A stretch of DNA of 64,000 bases from positions 67,001 to 131,000 of the forward strand of contig NZ_LT629945.1 of assembly GCF_900104675.1 (NCBI RefSeq), written 5' to 3'. This document shows positions 19,204 to 51,836 of this stretch, piece by piece. Position 1 is the first letter of the stretch. Each line of letters opens with the position of its first letter. The notes beneath the pieces are model-generated. The model saw only the letters and a program-made list of their open reading frames with translations. It was not told the origin of the DNA and made no database searches. Both the position numbers and the translations under genes were made by a program. The stretch comes from Angelakisella massiliensis (GTDB lineage: Bacteria > Bacillota > Clostridia > Oscillospirales > Ruminococcaceae).

Positions 19204-21489
19204 TCAGCCACGATAGTAGTTGATCAGGCAGCCGTCCAGGATGATCTGACGTTCATCATCGGTCAGAGTACCCAGAGAAACGGTGATCTCCCGAACCTCA
19301 TTACCAATGACATAGCCCTTGATCGCATCGCTCTTTTCCACAATGGCCTTGCGGATACCGGGGAAGAAAATGTAATCATCCAGCTGGAAGGCTTCAGGAT
19401 CCTCCACCAGGAAGGGGATCATGCCCCAGTTGATCAGGTTGGAGCGATACCGCTTGGTGGCATACTCCTTGGCCAGGTTGGCCCAGGCGCCCAACACTCT
19501 CTGGCAGGAGGCAGCCTGCTCACGGGCGGAACCGTCACCGGGCTTGTTGGCAAAGATGGTGCTGCCAATGCCGATCTGACGGGGATGAACATCAGCAAAA
19601 CCGGGGATGGTCTTGATCTTGTCGTATACCGCAGTCAGCTCGGTTTCCTTAGCGGGGCAGGAACCGGATTCCCGGATCAGCTCCAGCTCATGGACAGCTT
19701 TGGCCTTGCCCACATAAGCAGGATCTTTCCGGCTCAGGGCAAACTCCGCCAGACGGAGAGGATTGGAGCGGTAAGAAGAGGTCTCACCGGAGGGGATCAG
19801 CTCGTCAGTAGTGGTAACAGGGTCGGTGATGTAGCTGACCACCTTCACCAGCAGATCCTCGGTGAGAGCGGGAATCTCCGGCCAGTCTTTGATGTTGGGG
19901 CCAAACTTCAGCTCTGCGTCGGGCTGCGCCTTGCCAAAGCCGTCATACACTCTCTTGTCATAGACGCTCTTGTCAAAGTAGTACTTGGGATTGGTGTAAT
20001 TCACATCCAGATCGGTGGCTGCGGTCAGGCGGCCTCCGTTGATGGCGGTGGCGGCGATGGAACGGGCATCCATCAGCGCTACGCCGGACATCTGGCCCTC
20101 GCCGGGCTTGGAGCCTTCCCGGTTGGGGAAGTTGCGGGTGGTATGGCGGATGGAGAACTCACCGTTGGCAGGAGTGTCGCCTGCACCGAAGCAGGGACCG
20201 CAGAAGCACTCGCGGATGATGGCGCCGGCGCCGGCGATCTTGGCAATGGAGCCATTCTTGATCAGCTCCAGATAGGCGGGCATGGAGCCGGGATAAACGC
20301 TCATCTTAAAGGTGCCGTTGCCGCAGGACTTGCCGTCCAGGATATCGGCTACCGCGCAGACATTGTCAAAGGTACCGCCGGAGCAGCCGGCCACAATGCC
20401 CTGGTCCACATAGATTTCACCGTCAGCATGGAGCTTGCTCATCAGGTCCATATGAGCGGTTTTGGCGATCTGGCTGTTGGCCCGATCCTCCACCATCTTC
20501 AGGATGTCCTTGGCATTCTCTTTCAGCTCACGGATGGTGTAGGTGTAGCTGGGATGCATGGGCATAGCGATGGTGCACTCCACCTTGGAAAGATCCACAT
20601 ACACGCAGCCGTCATAGTAAGCCACATCAGAGGGATTGAGCTCTTTATAAGCCTCGGGACGGCCATGGATGGTGAAGTAATCCTTCACTTTCTCATCGGT
20701 GACCCAGATGGAGGACCAGCAGGTGGTCTCGGTGGTCATAACATCGATGCCGTTGCGGAACTCTACAGGCAGGTTCTTGACGCCGGGGCCCACAAACTCC
20801 ATCACCTTGTTCTTGACATAACCATTGGCGTAAACCTTGCCAATGATGGACAGCGCCACGTCCTGAGGACCTACGCCTGCAGCGGGAGCGCCTTCCAGGT
20901 AGATGGCGATCACACCGGGACGGGGCATATCATAGGTGCGCTTGAGCAGCTGCTTGGCCAGCTCACCGCCGCCTTCGCCCACAGCCATGGTGCCCAGAGC
21001 GCCGTAGCGGGTGTGGCTGTCGGAGCCCAGGATCATGCGGCCGCAGCCGGACATCATCTCACGGTTGTAGGAGTGGATGACCGCCATATTGGTGGGAACA
21101 TAGATGCCGCCGTATTTCTTGGCAGCGGACAGGGCAAACATGTGGTCGTCCTCATTGATGGTGCCGCCTACAGCGCACAGACTGTTGTGGCAGTTGGTCA
21201 GGACATAGGGAATGGGGAACTCTGTCATACCACTGGCGCGGGCAGTCTGAATAATACCTACATAAGTAATATCATGGGAGGTCAGGGAGTCAAACTTGAT
21301 CCGCAGGTTCTCCTCTGTACCGCTGTTATGAGCAGCGATGATGCCGGCGGCCATTGTACCGCGGCGAGCCTCCTCCTTGCTGGGGACTGTACCCTTGGCC
21401 TGCTTGAGGGCCGCCTGGGCATTGTTGTCGTCAGGGATAATCTGACATCCATCCACCAGATAAACACCGGTGTCATACAACTTAACCAT
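19204..21489 (-). CDS. Aconitase-family hydratase
   Basis: 761-aa [4Fe-4S] hydratase of the aconitase superfamily, resembling the YbhJ-type branch. Cluster cysteines are visible in [13 protein letters not shown] and [13 protein letters not shown]; substrate and active-site motifs include [20 protein letters not shown] and [17 protein letters not shown]. It probably interconverts citrate and isocitrate or dehydrates a related acid. The ATG at 21489 (MVKLYDTG, behind AAAGGAAGA) is preferred over an earlier in-frame start. Position between citD and a divergent LysR gene ties it to tricarboxylate metabolism. Confidence 0.88.
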
Positions 21490-25158: not shown

Positions 25159-25462
25159 GGGCTAAAGAAAGGATTGGCGCTGTTTTTTGCCAGGTTTGCT
25201 CTTTAAAAGCAGCCAGCGCGCACGCCCTGTGTTTTTTGTGGCGATACCATAGCCAAAAGCAGGTGCAGGAGTTCATTTTACATCTGTGGCAGCCTTCAAA
25301 AACCGTACTCCAAATAAGTTTTGAGGCAGGCGGAAAACCTGCCTCCACCCCCTTGTGTCCGGTTTTCAGAGAGCTGTTTTTTTGGATATGAAACAGGTGT
25401 TTACCGCAGTAAAAACTTGTCGTTTTTGTGACGAAGTTGTTGCATCATGTGTTACAAATTCC
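25159..25462. other. Divergent intergenic region between thrS and rny
   Basis: No gene is recognised. A GC-rich stem GAGGCAGG/CCTGCCTC at about 25322-25344 has no T-run. Confidence 0.5.
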
Positions 25463-25491
25463 TTGACATTCATAAGAAGAAGTTATACAAT
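25463..25491 (+). promoter_or_regulatory. Promoter of rny
   Basis: TTGACA (25463-25468) and TACAAT (25486-25491) with a 17-base spacer. The leader is about 105 bases. Confidence 0.8.
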
Positions 25492-25605
25492 AATAGGGGT
25501 ATTTGTATAACTTTTTTACAGATACTCCCTGCTATTTTTGTTACACTTTCCATAATCCCCAGCAAGTCAAAAAATCAAAAGAAAAGGAGGAAAAGGCACA
25601 GAATT

Positions 25606-27165
25606 ATGACAACCCAAACATTGAGCATGATCGTGTGCGGACTGATTTCATTTGTCGTCGGCGCGGTATTGGCCTTCTTTGCCGGCGTTAAGTATAGAAT
25701 GAAAGTAGCCGAAGCCGAGCTGGGCTCAGCAGAAGAAGAAGCCAAACGTCTGGTAAGCGACGCCATCAGAGCAGCTGAAACCAAGAAAAAGGAAGCTCTG
25801 CTGGAAGCCAAGGATGAGATCTACAAGATCAAAAACGACTCCGAAAAGGAGATCAAGGAACGGCGCAGCGAGGTGCAGCGTCAGGAGCGGCGCCTTCAGC
25901 AGCGGGAGGAAAATCTGGACCGCAAGACGGAAAACATGGAGAAGAAGGAAGAAGCTCTTCAGCAGAAACTGAAGGATGCCGACCAGAGGCTCCAGGAAGC
26001 GGAGCAGGTAAAGGCCAGCCAACTGGAAATGCTGGAACGGATCTCGGGGTATTCCGAGGAACAGGCAAAAGCCTATCTGCTGTCCACCCTCAGCGATGAG
26101 CTGACCCATGAAAAAGCGCTGAAGATCCAACAGTTTGAACAGCGCTACAAGGAGGAAGCGGACCAGAAGGCACGGGAGATCATTTCCCAGGCTATTCAGC
26201 GCTGTGCCGCTGACCATGTGGCTGAGGTTACTGTTTCGGCAGTTCCCCTGCCCAGCGATGAGATGAAAGGCCGGATCATTGGCCGTGAAGGACGCAATAT
26301 CCGTACCCTGGAAACCCTGACAGGTGTAGACCTGATCATCGACGACACCCCTGAGGCCATCACCCTCTCCAGCCATGACCCGGTCAAGAGAGAGGTGGCG
26401 CGGATCGCCCTGGAGAAGCTGATCCAGGATGGCCGTATCCATCCCGCCCGTATTGAGGAAGCGGTGGAAAAAGCAGCCCGAGAAGTGGAACAGAAAATCA
26501 AGCAGGACGGCGAGCGCGCCGTCATTGAAACCGGAGTTCATGGTGTCCATCCTGAACTGATGCGGCTGCTGGGACGTATGCGCTATCGTACCAGCTATGG
26601 ACAGAACGTACTGGATCACTCCATTGAAGTGGCTCAGATCGCGGGTATTATGGCTTCTGAGCTGGGATTGGAGCCCACACAGGCCAAGCGTGCCGGCCTT
26701 CTCCATGATATCGGCAAGGCTCTCACCCATGAGATCGAAGGCTCCCATGTGGCTATTGGTGTGGATCTGGCCCGGAAGTACCGTGAGAATCCAGACATTA
26801 TCCACGCCATTGAGGCACATCACAATGATGTGGAGCCCAAGACCATTGTGGCATGTCTGGTTCAGGCTGCCGATGCTATCTCCGCCGCCCGTCCCGGCGC
26901 CCGGAGAGAAAATCTGGAAAATTACATCAAGCGTTTGGAAAAGCTGGAAAGCATCGCTAACTCCTTTGAGGGAGTGGACAAGTGTTTTGCTATCCAGGCT
27001 GGCCGTGAGATTCGCATTATGCTCAAACCCGACATCATCAGTGATGATCAGATGATTATCACCGCTCGGGAAATTGCCAAGCGGATCGAGGATGAAATGG
27101 AATATCCGGGCCAGATCAAGGTCAATGTCATTCGGGAAACCCGTGCGATTGAATACGCAAAATAA
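25606..27165 (+). CDS. rny: Ribonuclease Y
   Basis: Membrane-anchored endoribonuclease that initiates mRNA decay in Firmicutes. The 519-aa protein has an N-terminal transmembrane helix (residues ~5-28), a long charged coiled coil (~35-200), a KH RNA-binding domain ([18 protein letters not shown]) and an HD phosphodiesterase domain with [15 protein letters not shown] and [11 protein letters not shown]. The ATG at 25606 follows AAAAGGAGGAAAAGG; an earlier in-frame ATG would add a non-family extension. The gene is monocistronic and ends at a terminator carrying a repeat insertion. Confidence 0.97.
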
Positions 27166-27184
27166 ACTGAACCTGCAACCAAAG

Positions 27185-27443
27185 GGGACCGCTTCGGCGG
27201 TCCCTTGAGCGTGTCGAAAAAGTTCGACACGCTCAAGGGGGTATGGGATACCCCCTGGATACGCCGCTTGGTTCCTGACGAAACCAGCGGCGATACCCCC
27301 GGTTTCGCGCCCCGGTGGGCGCGGGTCGTGGTATAAAAATCAGGCGCATGTCCTGATTTTTATGGGGATTTTGAATTTTATTTGCTCTTTCAAACAGGCT
27401 TTTTCTACAGTCTGAAGGGACCGCTTCGGCGGTCCCTTTTTTT
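27185..27443. repeat. Structured intergenic repeat, copy A, bracketed by duplicated rny terminator stems
   Basis: GGGACCGCTTCGGCGGTCCC occurs at 27185-27204 without a T-run and again at 27417-27436 with seven T. Between them is the ~210-base repeat (plus orientation here is the reverse of copies B and D): stem GTGTCGAA/TTCGACAC, a GGGGGTAT/ATACCCCC stem, a long stem around GGTTCCTGACGAAACC, a CGCGCCCC/GGGCGCG stem, and the ATAAAAATCAGG/CCTGATTTTTAT hairpin. The right-hand hairpin is the effective terminator of rny. Confidence 0.85.
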
Positions 27444-44238: not shown

Positions 44239-45207
44239 ATGACGTCTTTTCTGCCGGAAGGAAGTCTGCTGGGTACAGAGGAAAATGACCGCTTTTTTCG
44301 CGGGCCCGCCGCTCTGGAGGAAGCCAGAGCAAGCCAAAGGATCCTGGAGGCCCGGGCTGTGGTGTGCGATCCCGATCATAATCTGATCGTGGATTTGGGC
44401 TTTACCCGGGGGCTGATCCCCCGCTGCGAGGGGGCGGCGGGCATCAGTGATGGTTCCACCCGGGATATCGCCATTATCTCCAGAGTAGGCAAGCCGGTCT
44501 GCTTTGTTGTCACCGGCCTGAGCCGCAGCTGCTCCGGACGGATGCTGCCGCTCCTCTCCCGCCGGCAGGCACAGCAGCGGTGCCGGGAGGAGTACTTATC
44601 ACGGCTTGTGCCTGGAGATGTTATTCCCGGGAGGGTCACCCACCTGGAAAATTTCGGAGCCTTTGTGGATATGGGCTGCGGTCTGCCTTCACTGATTCCA
44701 ATCGACCATATTTCCGTTTCCCGCATCGCCCATCCCCGGGACCGGTTCCGGCCGGGGGATTCCATCCTGGCGGTGGTCAAAAGTCTGGAGCCGGATGGAC
44801 GGATCTGTCTGAGCCACAAGGAACTGCTGGGCACCTGGGAGGAGAATGCCGCTCTGTTCCAGCCGGGAGAAACGGTGGCGGGGGTGGTGCGTTCTGTGGA
44901 AAATTATGGTGTTTTTGTGGAGCTTACCCCCAATCTGGCGGGATTGGCGGAACCCTTTGGGGAGGTCCGTCCGGGGCAGCACGCAAGCGTCTACATTAAA
45001 AGCATCCTACCGGACAAAATGAAAATCAAACTGATCCTGGTGGATGCCTTTGACGCCGCCTACATCAGACCGGAGCTGCGGTATTTTGTCACCGGGGGCC
45101 ATATGGACCGATGGGTCTATTCCACCTCCAGCTCTCCCCGAAAGATGGAGACCATCTTTTCCCCTGCCGCTGCTGAAAGCGAAAAAAATGAAGAAGCTTC
45201 CCTGTAG
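44239..45207 (+). CDS. S1 RNA-binding domain protein (ribosomal protein S1-like)
   Basis: 322-aa protein with at least two OB-fold S1 domains: PGDVIPGRVTHLENFGAFVD (~127-200) and PGETVAGVVRSVENYGVFVE (~212-270), and a degenerate N-terminal one (ARAVVCDPDHNLIVDLGFTR). It resembles the short S1 homologues of clostridia rather than six-domain S1. Likely binds mRNA or ribosomes in the cytosol. GAGGAGGGG precedes ATG 44239. Divergent from rpoBC, with its own promoter and leader terminator. Confidence 0.88.
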   Translation: MTSFLPEGSLLGTEENDRFFRGPAALEEARASQRILEARAVVCDPDHNLIVDLGFTRGLIPRCEGAAGISDGSTRDIAIISRVGKPVCFVVTGLSRSCSGRMLPLLSRRQAQQRCREEYLSRLVPGDVIPGRVTHLENFGAFVDMGCGLPSLIPIDHISVSRIAHPRDRFRPGDSILAVVKSLEPDGRICLSHKELLGTWEENAALFQPGETVAGVVRSVENYGVFVELTPNLAGLAEPFGEVRPGQHASVYIKSILPDKMKIKLILVDAFDAAYIRPELRYFVTGGHMDRWVYSTSSSPRKMETIFSPAAAESEKNEEASL

Positions 45208-45244
45208 GCAATCAGCCAAAAGATGTACATTGCATATGCAAAAA

Positions 45245-45521
45245 GGGCGGTACCGCAAACAAATACCCGGTGCCGCCCTCAGGCTGTAAAAAAGCCTGTT
45301 TGAAAGAGCAAACAAAATTCAAAATCATAAAAATCAGGACATGCGCCTGATTTTTATACCACGCCCCGCGCCCACCAGGGCGCGAAACCGGGGGTATCGC
45401 CGCTGGTTTCGTCAGGAACCAAGCGGCGTATCCAGAGGGACTGGGTCCCCCTGGAAGTGTGCCGAACCCCTTCGGCACACTCAGAGCGGTATCGCAGACA
45501 AATACGCGATGCCGCCCTTTT
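45245..45521. repeat. Structured intergenic repeat, copy B, bracketed by duplicated hairpins
   Basis: The left hairpin (45245-45278, GGGCGGTACCG...CGGTGCCGCCC) and right hairpin (45484-45517, GAGCGGTATCG...CGATGCCGCCC plus TTTT) agree at 29 of 34 positions and include a compensatory C-G to T-A change. Between them is the ~205-base repeat: ATAAAAATCAGG/CCTGATTTTTAT, CGCGCCC/GGGCGCG, a long stem around GGTTTCGTCAGGAACC, GGGGGACC-type stem and GTGCCGAA/TTCGGCAC. Confidence 0.85.
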
Positions 45522-48602: not shown

Positions 48603-48720
48603 TTATTCAAAAAAGGTTCACATTTCTCCTTGCCGCCTGAAAAATTCTCTTTGAAATAAGGCAGAAACCGCTTCCCTTGCCCTGAATAAAATGTGCCGTT
48701 TCCTTCTCCTGTATCAAAAA

Positions 48721-48986
48721 CCCCCAGCCTGAACACAGACTGCGGGGCTTTGCGTGTGCCGAAGGGGTTCGGCACACTTCCAGGGGGACCCAGTCCCCCT
48801 GGATACGCCGCTGGTTCCTGACGAAACCACCGGCGATACCCCTGGTTTCGCGCCCCAGTGGGCGCGGGTCGTGGTATAAAAATCAGGCGCATGTCCTGAT
48901 TTTTATGATTTGAAATTTTCTTTATTTTTTGAAATGGTTTTTTGCAGTCTGAAAACCCCGCAGCCTGAACACAGACTGCGGGGCTT
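48721..48986. repeat. Structured intergenic repeat, copy C, bracketed by duplicated hairpins
   Basis: Hairpins CCCCCAGCCTG...TGCGGGGCTT (48721-48750) and CCCCGCAGCCTG...TGCGGGGCTT (48956-48986) differ by one base indel. They lie downstream of the larA-like gene on the minus strand. Between them is the repeat, in the same orientation relative to transcription as copies B and D, including GTGCCGAA/TTCGGCAC, GGGGGACC-type, the long GAAACC/GGTTCC-centred stem, GGGCGCG and ATAAAAATCAGG hairpins. Confidence 0.85.
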
Positions 48987-49024
48987 TCATTATAATTATG
49001 TACCGGTATTTTTCCGGCATTTGG

Positions 49025-50296
49025 TTACTCGCTGACTCTGGGGATAACGGTAGAACCGTTTTCGATGACATAGGTCAGTTTACCGGTCAAATCCACCTGA
49101 GCCATCAGCTGGCCAATGTCTGAAAATGCCTCAATACCCATGGCAGCCAGCTGATTGGGGTCCGCAGAGGTGAGCATCAGAATACGATATCTTTCCGCCT
49201 GTTCGCAATTGAGATAGAAAATATATCCGGGGATGGTGAAGTTTTCCCGCAAATCCTTGTCCAGAGTTCCCCTCTGGAGCGGGCCGATCCAGTCAAAATA
49301 CTCCGCCGGACCTCCGCCGTCCCGGCACTCTGCCAGCAGCACCAGCGTACCGCCTGGTTTGAGGCCGGATTCAACGTTATCAATGGTTTTGGTACCCTGA
49401 TACAGGGACATATCCTTGGGATATCCGCCGCAGCCCGCAATGATCACATCCGCCTTCCGGGGGATGGGGGTACGGTAGATGGCGTCCGCAGCTTCGCAGC
49501 CCTCCAGCCAGGAATCCAGCCAGTGCCCTGCGATGATCCGGGACAGCTTCATCTCAGCGTTCATGATCAGATTGATGACATACAGCTGCGGTACCATGGC
49601 GGCGGCTTCGCACATATCCTCATGGAGAGGATTTCCTTCCAGCACACCATTGCCGATGGCGGGATTGGAACGGGGAGCATTGGGGTCCAGGGACAGGGCA
49701 TGATTGCGGCGGACCGTTTCCAGAGAACTGATGCCGGGAAGGATGCTCTTGCGTCCCCCGCCGAAACCGGCCATCACATGATGGGCCACCGCTCCCAGAG
49801 CGATCACTTTCCGCCCCATCGCCAGGGGGTTGATTTCCACCGGCGTACCCCTGCTGGTGGTTCCCAGCCGCACCAGATCCGGCGCTTTGCAATCATGGTT
49901 GACCACCTGGATCTTCTCAAAGACATCCTTGGTCACCAGGGTCTCCAGGTCCTCCCTGCTGCCGCCCTCATGGGTGCCGTTGGCCACCAGGATCACCAGA
50001 TCTTCCGGCCGGATGCCGCAGCGCTGCTCCATATAATCCACCAGAGGAGGGATCACCAGATCCTGCCGCATCCAGAAGCGGCTCATATCGCTGATAATCA
50101 GCGTCACCAGATCACCGGGCTGCAGCCACTGGTTCAGGGGCAGCTGATGCACCGGATGCTCCAGCGCCTGAGCCAGCGTTTTGGGAATGTCCTCCACCGA
50201 AGGCTCCCAATGGCCCTTCAATTCCACAATCTGTTCCGAATCCGGCAGCTCCAGCTCCACCTGGGTACTGCCGTAGGCAAAGTGATACCCTTTCAT
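49025..50296 (-). CDS. LarA-family protein (nickel-pincer lactate racemase-like)
   Basis: 423-aa protein with both LarA signatures: ILVANGTHEGGSRED (catalytic His) and LGAVAHHVMAGFGGGRKSILPG with the second His and the lysine that binds the nickel-pincer cofactor. LarA racemises lactate; relatives racemise or epimerise other 2-hydroxy acids, so the substrate is open. No larB, larC or larE is in the window. ATG 50296 is preferred over a GTG three codons earlier because GAGGAG then has 8-base spacing. Divergent from the ModE-like gene. Confidence 0.88.
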   Translation of the reverse strand: MKGYHFAYGSTQVELELPDSEQIVELKGHWEPSVEDIPKTLAQALEHPVHQLPLNQWLQPGDLVTLIISDMSRFWMRQDLVIPPLVDYMEQRCGIRPEDLVILVANGTHEGGSREDLETLVTKDVFEKIQVVNHDCKAPDLVRLGTTSRGTPVEINPLAMGRKVIALGAVAHHVMAGFGGGRKSILPGISSLETVRRNHALSLDPNAPRSNPAIGNGVLEGNPLHEDMCEAAAMVPQLYVINLIMNAEMKLSRIIAGHWLDSWLEGCEAADAIYRTPIPRKADVIIAGCGGYPKDMSLYQGTKTIDNVESGLKPGGTLVLLAECRDGGGPAEYFDWIGPLQRGTLDKDLRENFTIPGYIFYLNCEQAERYRILMLTSADPNQLAAMGIEAFSDIGQLMAQVDLTGKLTYVIENGSTVIPRVSE

Positions 50297-50351
50297 CCTC
50301 TTCACTCCTCAAACCGTTTTTCCGCTTTATTGTGGAAAAAATTTTCTTTTT

Positions 50352-51140: not shown

Positions 51141-51410
51141 GCGCTCCCCTCTGGCCTCAGCCAGAGGGGAGCGCAGACTATAGAAAAACCTGGTTTAAGG
51201 GACAAATGAAATTCAAAATCATAAAAATCAGGACATGCGCCTGATTTTTATACCACGACCCGCGCCCACCGGGGCGCGAAACCGGGGGTATCGCCGCTGG
51301 TTTCATCAGGAACCAAGCGGCGTATCCAGGGGGTATTGGATACCCCCTGGAAGCGTGTCGAACTTTTTCGACACGCTCCGATCCCCTCTGGCCTCAGCCA
51401 GAGGGGATCG
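51141..51410. repeat. Structured intergenic repeat, copy D, bracketed by duplicated hairpins
   Basis: Hairpins at 51141-51174 and 51379-51410 share 26 identical bases (TCCCCTCTGGCCTCAGCCAG plus the following AGGGGA); their outer arms differ but still pair (GCGC versus CGAT arms). Between them is the repeat: ATAAAAATCAGG, CGCGCCC/GGGCGCG, the long stem around GGTTTCATCAGGAACC, CCAGGGGGTA/TACCCCCTGG, and GTGTCGAA/TTCGACAC hairpins. It follows the ModE-like gene. Confidence 0.85.
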
Positions 51411-51836
51411 ATCTATGATAAAGGCGCGGTATTGCGGAAAAAGGCTGTTCACGGGTCCTCAGACCACCCTTTCCCTCCCCCGCCGGATTATGACCTTCTC
51501 CAGAACCGGTCATCGACAGCCGCCTTCTGACCATGAGCATAAGCCACTGGAACATCCTATGCGCGGACGAAAAAAGGGGCTCCCGCCATCATTGAAACCA
51601 AAAAGGCAAACCGCCTGTGAGGGAAAACGGAGAGAAACTTTTGACCCCAAAAACAAGCCCGAACAGAGATGAAAAAAAGATTGTGCCACTGCTGGAATGT
51701 TCACCTGCAACGAGGAATGTCTCAAAACCCCATCAGCATTTAAACCAGTTATTGGAAGAAAGCTGCGCAGTCTGCGCCCCAGCACAGGTGCAGTTTCTGG
51801 TATTTTTTCTCCCTCAAACTTTTGATATAAACCAAA
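51411..51836. other. Intergenic stretch without a recognisable gene
   Basis: About 425 bases between repeat copy D and the glgP terminator. Open frames here (e.g. 51617 onward) lack ribosome binding sites and protein-like sequence. Confidence 0.45.

Follow-up and report, generated by a model that had tools for sequence, protein, structure and literature searches.

Four short repeats in the window, a 64,000-nucleotide stretch of the Angelakisella massiliensis genome (contig NZ_LT629945.1, positions 67,001–131,000), each lie between two copies of a hairpin that belongs to that locus. We conclude with considerable confidence that the repeat is a MITE-like element with the ends of an IS1182 clade, and that the whole palindrome at its target becomes the target-site duplication. 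The duplication of the whole hairpin by insertion is almost certain, and the responsible transposase is very probably of the IS1182 type. The initial annotation had proposed that insertion at a terminator-like hairpin duplicates the hairpin. This is borne out by the flanks of copies across the genome, by elements with other interiors, by autonomous IS1182 elements and by a set of filled and empty sites in Enterococcus faecium.

Four elements in the window and their flanking hairpins

Direct reading and a repeat search reveal, at all four loci, an element of 200–208 bp with locus-specific hairpin copies adjoining both of its ends (Table 1). The hairpin pairs are where the initial annotation had placed them, with spacings of 232, 239, 236 and 237 bp. 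Within a pair, 31 of 36 positions are identical at 45 kb and 30 of 32 at 51 kb, and the copies at 48.7 kb differ by one indel. The predicted RNA fold energies of the window hairpins range from -13.9 to -31.0 kcal/mol. A compensatory pair change in one copy had been reported; it is seen at 45 kb (T-A versus C-G), and a second paired stem change between copies occurs at 51 kb (A-T versus C-G). The duplicated unit, previously described as about 20–34 bp and palindromic, is indeed palindromic, but the full palindrome includes the outer A-T pairs and extends slightly beyond the quoted cores.

When the hairpins were searched against the window with up to four mismatches, each matched its own pair and nothing else, apart from self-complementary readings and one reverse-strand match of the 20-mer, with four mismatches, at 20194. 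The claim that the hairpins are unique within the window holds at this limit with one exception. The two 45-kb copies differ at five positions and thus miss each other in this search. As for the neighbouring genes, rny, the S1-domain gene and the larA-type gene fit Pfam models, whereas the gene named modE matches only HTH_1, just below the cut-off.

Table 1. Elements, hairpin copies and adjacent genes in the window.
Feature	Position	Strand	Remarks
Left hairpin copy, 3' of rny	27182-27206	.	one extra G
IS1182-type MITE-like element, 208 bp	27207-27414	+	left end GAGCGTGTCGAAAAAG, right end (reverse complement) CAGACTGTAGAAAAAGCC
Right hairpin copy, then T-run	27415-27438	.	24-bp palindrome
Hairpin copy, element right end, 3' of S1-domain gene	45244-45279	.	
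IS1182-type MITE-like element, 203 bp	45280-45482	-	left end of GTGTGCCG type
Hairpin copy, element left end	45483-45518	.	compensatory T-A/C-G difference
Left hairpin copy, one base shorter	48717-48751	.	
IS1182-type MITE-like element, 200 bp	48752-48951	+	convergent 3' ends: 938-aa ORF / larA-type gene
Right hairpin copy	48952-48987	.	
Hairpin copy, element right end	51142-51173	.	
IS1182-type MITE-like element, 205 bp	51174-51378	-	
Hairpin copy, element left end	51379-51410	.	compensatory A-T/C-G difference
rny (RNase Y), 3' hairpin is the target	25447-27165	+	RNase_Y_N 2.7e-62
S1-domain gene upstream of the 45 kb site	44239-45207	+	S1 1.8e-19
larA-type gene converging on the 48.7 kb site	49025-50305	-	Lar_N 3e-52

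Most copies in the genome are flanked by a duplicated palindrome

Searches of the window's genome (G000; 4.04 Mb, six contigs) gave at least 107 and at least 101 matches, each from the best 40 of about 120 candidates. The fetched loci were merged into 63 rows, each a copy or an array; further copies exist. Blast matches below 70 bits, pieces shorter than 100 nt and rows with a repeated 25-nt left flank were left out of the flank count. The last rule removed the array at C5:786556, whose flank is that of the window's 51 kb copy, and one place (L005) contributes two rows. From a genome of the same genus (G005), 13 copies were fetched, of which four have a flank cut by a contig end and nine have both flanks.

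The 60 nt to the left of each element were locally aligned with the 60 nt to the right, and 600 mismatched left/right flank pairs served as the control. The median score of the 63 rows is 24.8, compared with 6.4 for the control (95th percentile 9.4, maximum 21.6); 51 rows lie above the control 95th percentile and 39 above the control maximum. With a clear duplicate defined as a score of at least 18, the hairpin is duplicated around 46 of the 63 rows and 7 of the 9 same-genus copies, 53 of 72 together, so that tabulating the flanks, as the initial annotation had proposed, upholds the pattern. Copies without duplicated flanks had been held to speak against insertion. The majority are duplicated, but 17 of the 63 rows (five of them still above the 95th percentile) and two of the nine same-genus copies have no clear duplicate.

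The 53 duplicates are 21–43 bp long (median 29), lie no more than 2 nt from both element ends in 47 cases and are palindromic beyond the 99th percentile of their own shuffles in 51, which indicates that the duplicated unit is the palindrome itself, foot to foot. A T-run follows the right copy in 36 of these pairs, an A-run precedes the left copy in 31, and 44 have either; the T-run ascribed to the targets is thus common but lacking at others. Among 32 comparable pairs (40 of the 72 are not comparable), the duplicates are direct in 29 and inverted in three, and a predominance of the direct orientation is what target duplication predicts. An Rfam search of eight loci with E up to 1 gave no match to the element and one weak hit outside it.

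The two hairpin copies are identical in 23 of the 53 pairs. By a looser rule, two-sided stem changes are present at six loci and one-sided changes at 23, with five gapped pairs unclassified. Four strict Watson-Crick swaps were found, compared with 1.6 expected from random double hits (P = 0.064), an excess of compensatory changes that is no more than suggestive. A flipped loop in one copy marks 3 of the 32 comparable pairs of the two genomes (L004, L049 and L065) and, by eye, also L228 and L230; it is the trace of an inversion within the palindrome. Template switching within the palindrome would give both the flips and the paired changes; the other reading is selection for a working hairpin.

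Element ends, interior and tandem arrays

The MITE-like element and the elements of the IS1182 clade have the end motif xAGnnTGTnGAAAAA in common. In the window's genome, the left end is GAGCGTGTCGAAAAAG and the right end (reverse complement) is CAGACTGTAGAAAAA, and the same-genus copies mostly have the end CAGGCTGTCGAAAAA. The left end folds as a hairpin itself (GAGCGTGTCGAAAAAGTTCGACACGC), and the two ends of the element match each other at only 11–12 of 15 positions. Ends of the GAGCGTGTCGAAAAAG and CAGACTGTAGAAAAACCTG types match, imperfectly, the insertion sequence ends CAGCCTGTCGAAAAAGG and CAGCTTGTAGAAAAACCTG of a same-family genome (G034), and G017 is similar.

The interior forms a chain of predicted hairpins, both in the window copies and in 63 aligned units of the window's genome and the same-genus genome. 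In the third stem, both sides are swapped between copies (GCCGC/GCGGC, GATTC/GAATC and GAAGC/GCTTC; covariation judged by eye), as would be expected of a selected structure.

At least 19 of the 63 rows are tandem arrays, in which 2–10 units of about 150 bp lie within one flank pair, for example L027 (C5:80538-82092), L026 (C5:786556-788114) and L037 (C6:908899-909849). Inner units end in CATGTCCCTCT and start with GAGTGTGCCG; the tail is present only on the last unit, and the GAGCGTGTCG type is often retained in the first. The junction contains TCTGA, which is similar to the right end, as would be seen in a tandem dimer. Junction matches number 60 in the window's genome, with none in the same-genus genome or in the four genomes of family f14 described below, and weak matches at G000:C6:1027790 and C6:1303872 suggest additional degenerate arrays. 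The region G000:C5:785200-789700 (L072) contains an N and a 249-base stretch identical to window positions 51231-51479, which may reflect misassembly at the repeat during scaffolding or gap filling.

Elements with other interiors have the same kind of flanks

A search of 295 genomes of the order for the 26-mer left end GAGCGTGTCGAAAAAGTTCGACACGC, one mismatch being allowed, located it in five: the window's genome and four genomes of another family (f14), which hold 33 matches. The f14 elements with both ends found are 234–268 bp long; their interiors differ, their left end is shared and their right end is like TTTTTTGACAGTCTG. The same hairpin is present on both sides at 15 of the 23 f14 loci read, and three of the other eight are cut by contig ends; one locus (L097, the same as L206) without a matching right hairpin was counted as a miss. 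The flanks of the f14 loci share no sites. That these elements agree in their ends and in the nature of their flanks while their interiors are unrelated suggests that several MITE families are moved by a single type of transposase.

Most autonomous IS1182 copies with such ends lie between duplicated palindromes

Of 297 genomes of the order, 25 contain elements detected by the NCBIfam model NF033551 (IS1182) at E up to 1e-60. In these genomes, 31 loci of 35 listed places were examined, and 12 have two ends of the CAGnnTGTnGAAAAA type or a near variant. Relatives are present in 329 plasmid and 13 phage records; 11 of the 12 elements read there have two such ends. Among the 23 autonomous copies with both ends located, 16 carry the same palindrome of 18–47 bp on both sides with zero gap, a result for the clade that is not independent of the ends, since the 23 copies were picked by the end motif. 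The 16 comprise eight copies from genomes of the order, five from Sutcliffiella and Enterococcus plasmids and three from Streptococcus phage records. The MITE and the autonomous element, whose ends match imperfectly, thus agree in their target and in the type of duplication that they leave.

The other seven copies have no matching pair. Five lie between two different hairpins (L260, L265, L236, L283 and the Thermocaproicibacter melissae plasmid copy, NZ_CP101828.1), and nearly the same pair of differing hairpins is found in L283 and in the T. melissae plasmid. Two, of the ISEfa7 type (L323 and L330), have no clear pair. As a guess, the non-matching pairs arose by recombination between copies.

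The transposases score over the NF033551 cut-off (270 bits; up to 469), although some of the copies used fall below it, such as L236 (238 bits). They contain DUF772 and DDE domains; L263 and L268 match PF05598, PF13751 and PF01609. In a tree of 34 rows, the 16 duplicating transposases are all located on one 23-row branch with support of 100/100. The tree carries a long-branch warning among 12 rows classed as other, which may duplicate hairpins too. L280, the only one of them on the duplicating branch, adjoins a hairpin with its left end and is cut short before its right end. Eight of 42 proteins were left out of the tree: L283, which is identical to another, and L231, L275, L277, L278, L279, L282 and L074, which have fewer than 300 aligned residues.

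A MITE usually has an autonomous partner, which can be lost. The profile search of the window's genome gave no IS1182 transposase over the cut-off; the element is therefore termed MITE-like, and we infer its mobility in trans from its ends. The same-genus genome retains, at a contig end, the last 32 aa of a transposase that is 97% identical to that of G034, and this remnant adjoins the insertion sequence end CAGCTTGTAGAAAAACCTG and a hairpin. A 329-aa insertion sequence present at eight places in the window's genome, with weak matches to NF033551 and PF13751, was rejected as the partner: it has GGGCAATACCGCA ends, and short, AT-rich sequences rather than hairpins make up the flanks that were read. 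Its nearly identical copies of about 1140 bp occupy the eight places on G000:C6 (L074-L081, L087-L091), with three pairs 1387–1388 bases apart and a spacer of about 247 bp.

Filled and empty sites

On the E. faecium plasmid NZ_LR134109.1, a 1516-bp IS1182 element lies between two identical copies of the 22-bp palindrome AATAGAGCTTTTCAGCTCTATT. With the whole locus as the query, 14 of the best 60 of 356 records have both flanks without the insertion sequence. Two of these plasmids were read; each holds one copy of the palindrome, and the outer anchors are 78 and 77 bases apart, compared with 78 expected for a single copy. This filled/empty set shows that one 22-bp hairpin becomes two on insertion of an autonomous relative. 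The single hairpin predicted where the element is absent is thereby found at a site of this relative rather than of a window copy.

For the window copies, the initial annotation had predicted a single hairpin at the corresponding 3' regions of relatives. The 2,500 bases 3' of rny were analyzed in 80 named relatives; the closest to the window's RNase Y is Marasmitruncus massiliensis, with 79%. A hairpin without a near-copy is present in 59, as predicted, but 18 have no hairpin by the rule used; two regions are too short, and the one flagged (L149) reads as a GC-rich chance repeat. The script flags the rny pair of the window and misses its imperfect S1 pair, so its sensitivity is limited. A looser rule flags an uncultured Oscillospiraceae (L161), in which a long hairpin 3' of rny recurs as a near-copy with an inverted loop 670 bases away; the DNA between the two is unrelated and has no IS1182 ends. 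This case counts against the preferred reading; the DNA may be a further element that inserts in a similar way. In Pseudoflavonifractor sp. An184, an IS1182-type end (CAGCTTGTCAAAAAA, L144:2063) adjoins the rny hairpin of another genus, and another such end adjoins a hairpin at L144:109; a partner end was found for neither, nor a second hairpin at the rny site.

By eye, five of seven same-genus genomes have one terminator-like hairpin 3' of S1 and no element in 350 bases, as predicted, but two have no clear hairpin. The larA and 51-kb sites of G005 likewise show one hairpin each (by eye), although these are unlike the window's, and remains of the element, in degraded form, follow the larA hairpin at a distance of a few hundred bases. 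A sequence-orthologous empty site for a window copy was not found among the relatives, and the same-genus hairpins are unlike the window's. As far as such sequence comparisons go, the rny, S1, larA and 51-kb regions are consistent with insertion, but weakly so.

A proposed insertion mechanism and its alternatives

In transposition by a DDE enzyme, each 3' end of the element is linked to one strand of the target, and the duplication corresponds to the distance between the points of attack (PMC5678879). In the mechanism that we propose, the transposase would pick a palindrome, usually a terminator-like hairpin, by structure rather than sequence, and the palindrome would extrude as a cruciform. 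The two 3' ends of the element would then attack the two 5' feet of the cruciform arms, which adjoin at the four-way junction yet lie one full palindrome apart along the duplex. Gap repair would copy the whole arm, and the duplication would be exactly the palindrome, of any length, with a complete hairpin left on each side of the element. Attack at the 5' feet would thus make the length of the duplication follow the target (18–47 bp) instead of being fixed. We consider a cruciform target attacked at its 5' feet to be reasonably probable, and the proposition that the borders and the length are set by the shape of the extruded target, not by the geometry of the transposase, to have a slightly better than even chance. 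An insertion of this kind would allow the host gene to retain its terminator. If this mechanism is true, the transposase would be a junction-reading integrase that keeps the host terminator hairpin on both sides, and its MITEs could spread to about 60 sites within a single genome while doing little harm.

In conventional DDE insertion sequences, the target duplication is short and of constant length. The present duplications are not constant but follow the palindrome (21–43 bp for the MITEs and 18–47 bp for the insertion sequences), and the element was not assigned to this class. The contrast drawn earlier with conventional insertion sequences, which make much shorter duplications, is valid for the lengths found here, but the family is known, and direct repeats of 2–60 bp are recorded for IS1182 (PMC7335449, as far as the accessible text goes). 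The same record favors staggered cutting with a very long, variable stagger and a preference for palindromes but no extruded hairpin, and the present data hold no sign of extrusion. The duplication ends at the ends of the palindrome across 18–47 bp, which a protein-fixed stagger would not produce, and we regard long staggered cutting as unlikely, though a serious contender. The hairpins might instead belong to the element and only look locus-specific because the two ends of a pair change together by gene conversion; the two-sided stem differences at six loci and the flipped loops (3 of 32) do show exchange within the hairpins. However, the hairpin sequence differs from locus to locus, elements with unrelated interiors and autonomous insertion sequences behave alike, and the empty E. 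faecium sites hold the hairpin without the insertion sequence, which makes this origin very improbable.

Group IIC introns insert at hairpins, and palindromes are prone to replication slippage. Both processes would be drawn on if the element inserted after the hairpin, as these introns do, and a fold-back slip of replication then placed a second hairpin on its other side, but the element has transposon-type inverted ends common to IS1182, and the duplication is present in most of the copies examined, mainly in direct orientation; this course of events is scarcely credible. Replacement or cutting of the stem-loop, as by IS1272, with the second hairpin arising later, would suit an element of the same family with the same target preference (PMC4923244 and PMC5678879, both from partial texts). 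The hairpins nevertheless adjoin both ends (within 2 nt) in 47 of 53 pairs, and the filled and empty sites show the gain of one copy, not a loss, so that we judge it highly improbable. In the IS1272 class, the stem-loop is deleted without duplication; the present element was not placed there, the hairpin being present twice. Whole-hairpin duplication upon insertion remains our preferred reading.

Significance and comparison with known systems

A target-site duplication is normally a fixed fingerprint of the transposase. In the present case, it consists of an entire hairpin from a gene end and takes its length from the target. This may account for the odd direct repeats of 2–60 bp of IS1182, and it suggests how an element inserts at a gene end with the stop signal kept. 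For annotators, the signature is one terminator in paired copies around a short gap.

The IS1182 family, its targeting of hairpins and its 2–60 bp direct repeats are already known. Within the literature searched, we found no precedent for the scale, for the MITEs, for the clade or for the filled/empty set. That search, which had most subscription journals outside its scope, so that prior notice may exist, gave no report of a duplication that spans the whole palindrome, nor of such MITEs.

In REP/BIME sequences, the palindrome is the element, whereas in the present system the palindrome serves as the target and is a different one at each locus. REP/BIME sequences resemble the present system as transposase-linked intergenic palindromes, associated with RAYT transposases (PMC2817692, available in part). 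Within the IS1182 family, the transposases act with or without target duplication or deletion and are guided by sequence or structure (PMC12056078), and IS1182 is over-represented between convergent genes (PMC9208149), according to the accessible sections of both papers. With one exception, ISCbo5 (formerly ISBma2) is inserted at hairpins that lie at the ends of genes and probably stop transcription (PMC3098183). These are targets as here; the available portion of that text mentions a "surrounding hairpin" and, within that portion, neither a duplication or its length nor MITEs. IS1272 and TnSha1 target stem-loops including terminators with no sequence preference and, in the excerpts available, delete or replace the stem-loop with no target duplication (PMC4923244, PMC5678879), whereas the present element duplicates it whole.

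In the partial text of Wan 2017 (PMC5678879), pathway a of Fig. 13, proposed for IS1272, places the attack at the 3' feet, and the stem-loop is lost; pathway b, duplication of the whole stem-loop, is drawn as a hypothetical route with no example. The present sequence data agree with pathway b in this IS1182 clade, and the 72 MITE flank pairs, 23 insertion sequence flank pairs and one filled/empty set are a natural dataset for the route drawn in 2017. ISEfa7 and other Enterococcus IS1182 elements, with ends CAGACTGTAGACAAA, are located on the same tree branch. Their non-ISEfa7 copies (L321, L322, L328 and L329) duplicate whole palindromes, as here, whereas the ISEfa7-type copies L323 and L330 differ in having no matching pair. 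The BrickBuilt MITE of Porphyromonas gingivalis also has an internal tandem array with a distinct leader and tail; its unit is 23 bp, compared with about 150 bp here, and the available part of its description does not mention hairpin duplication (PMC4596501).
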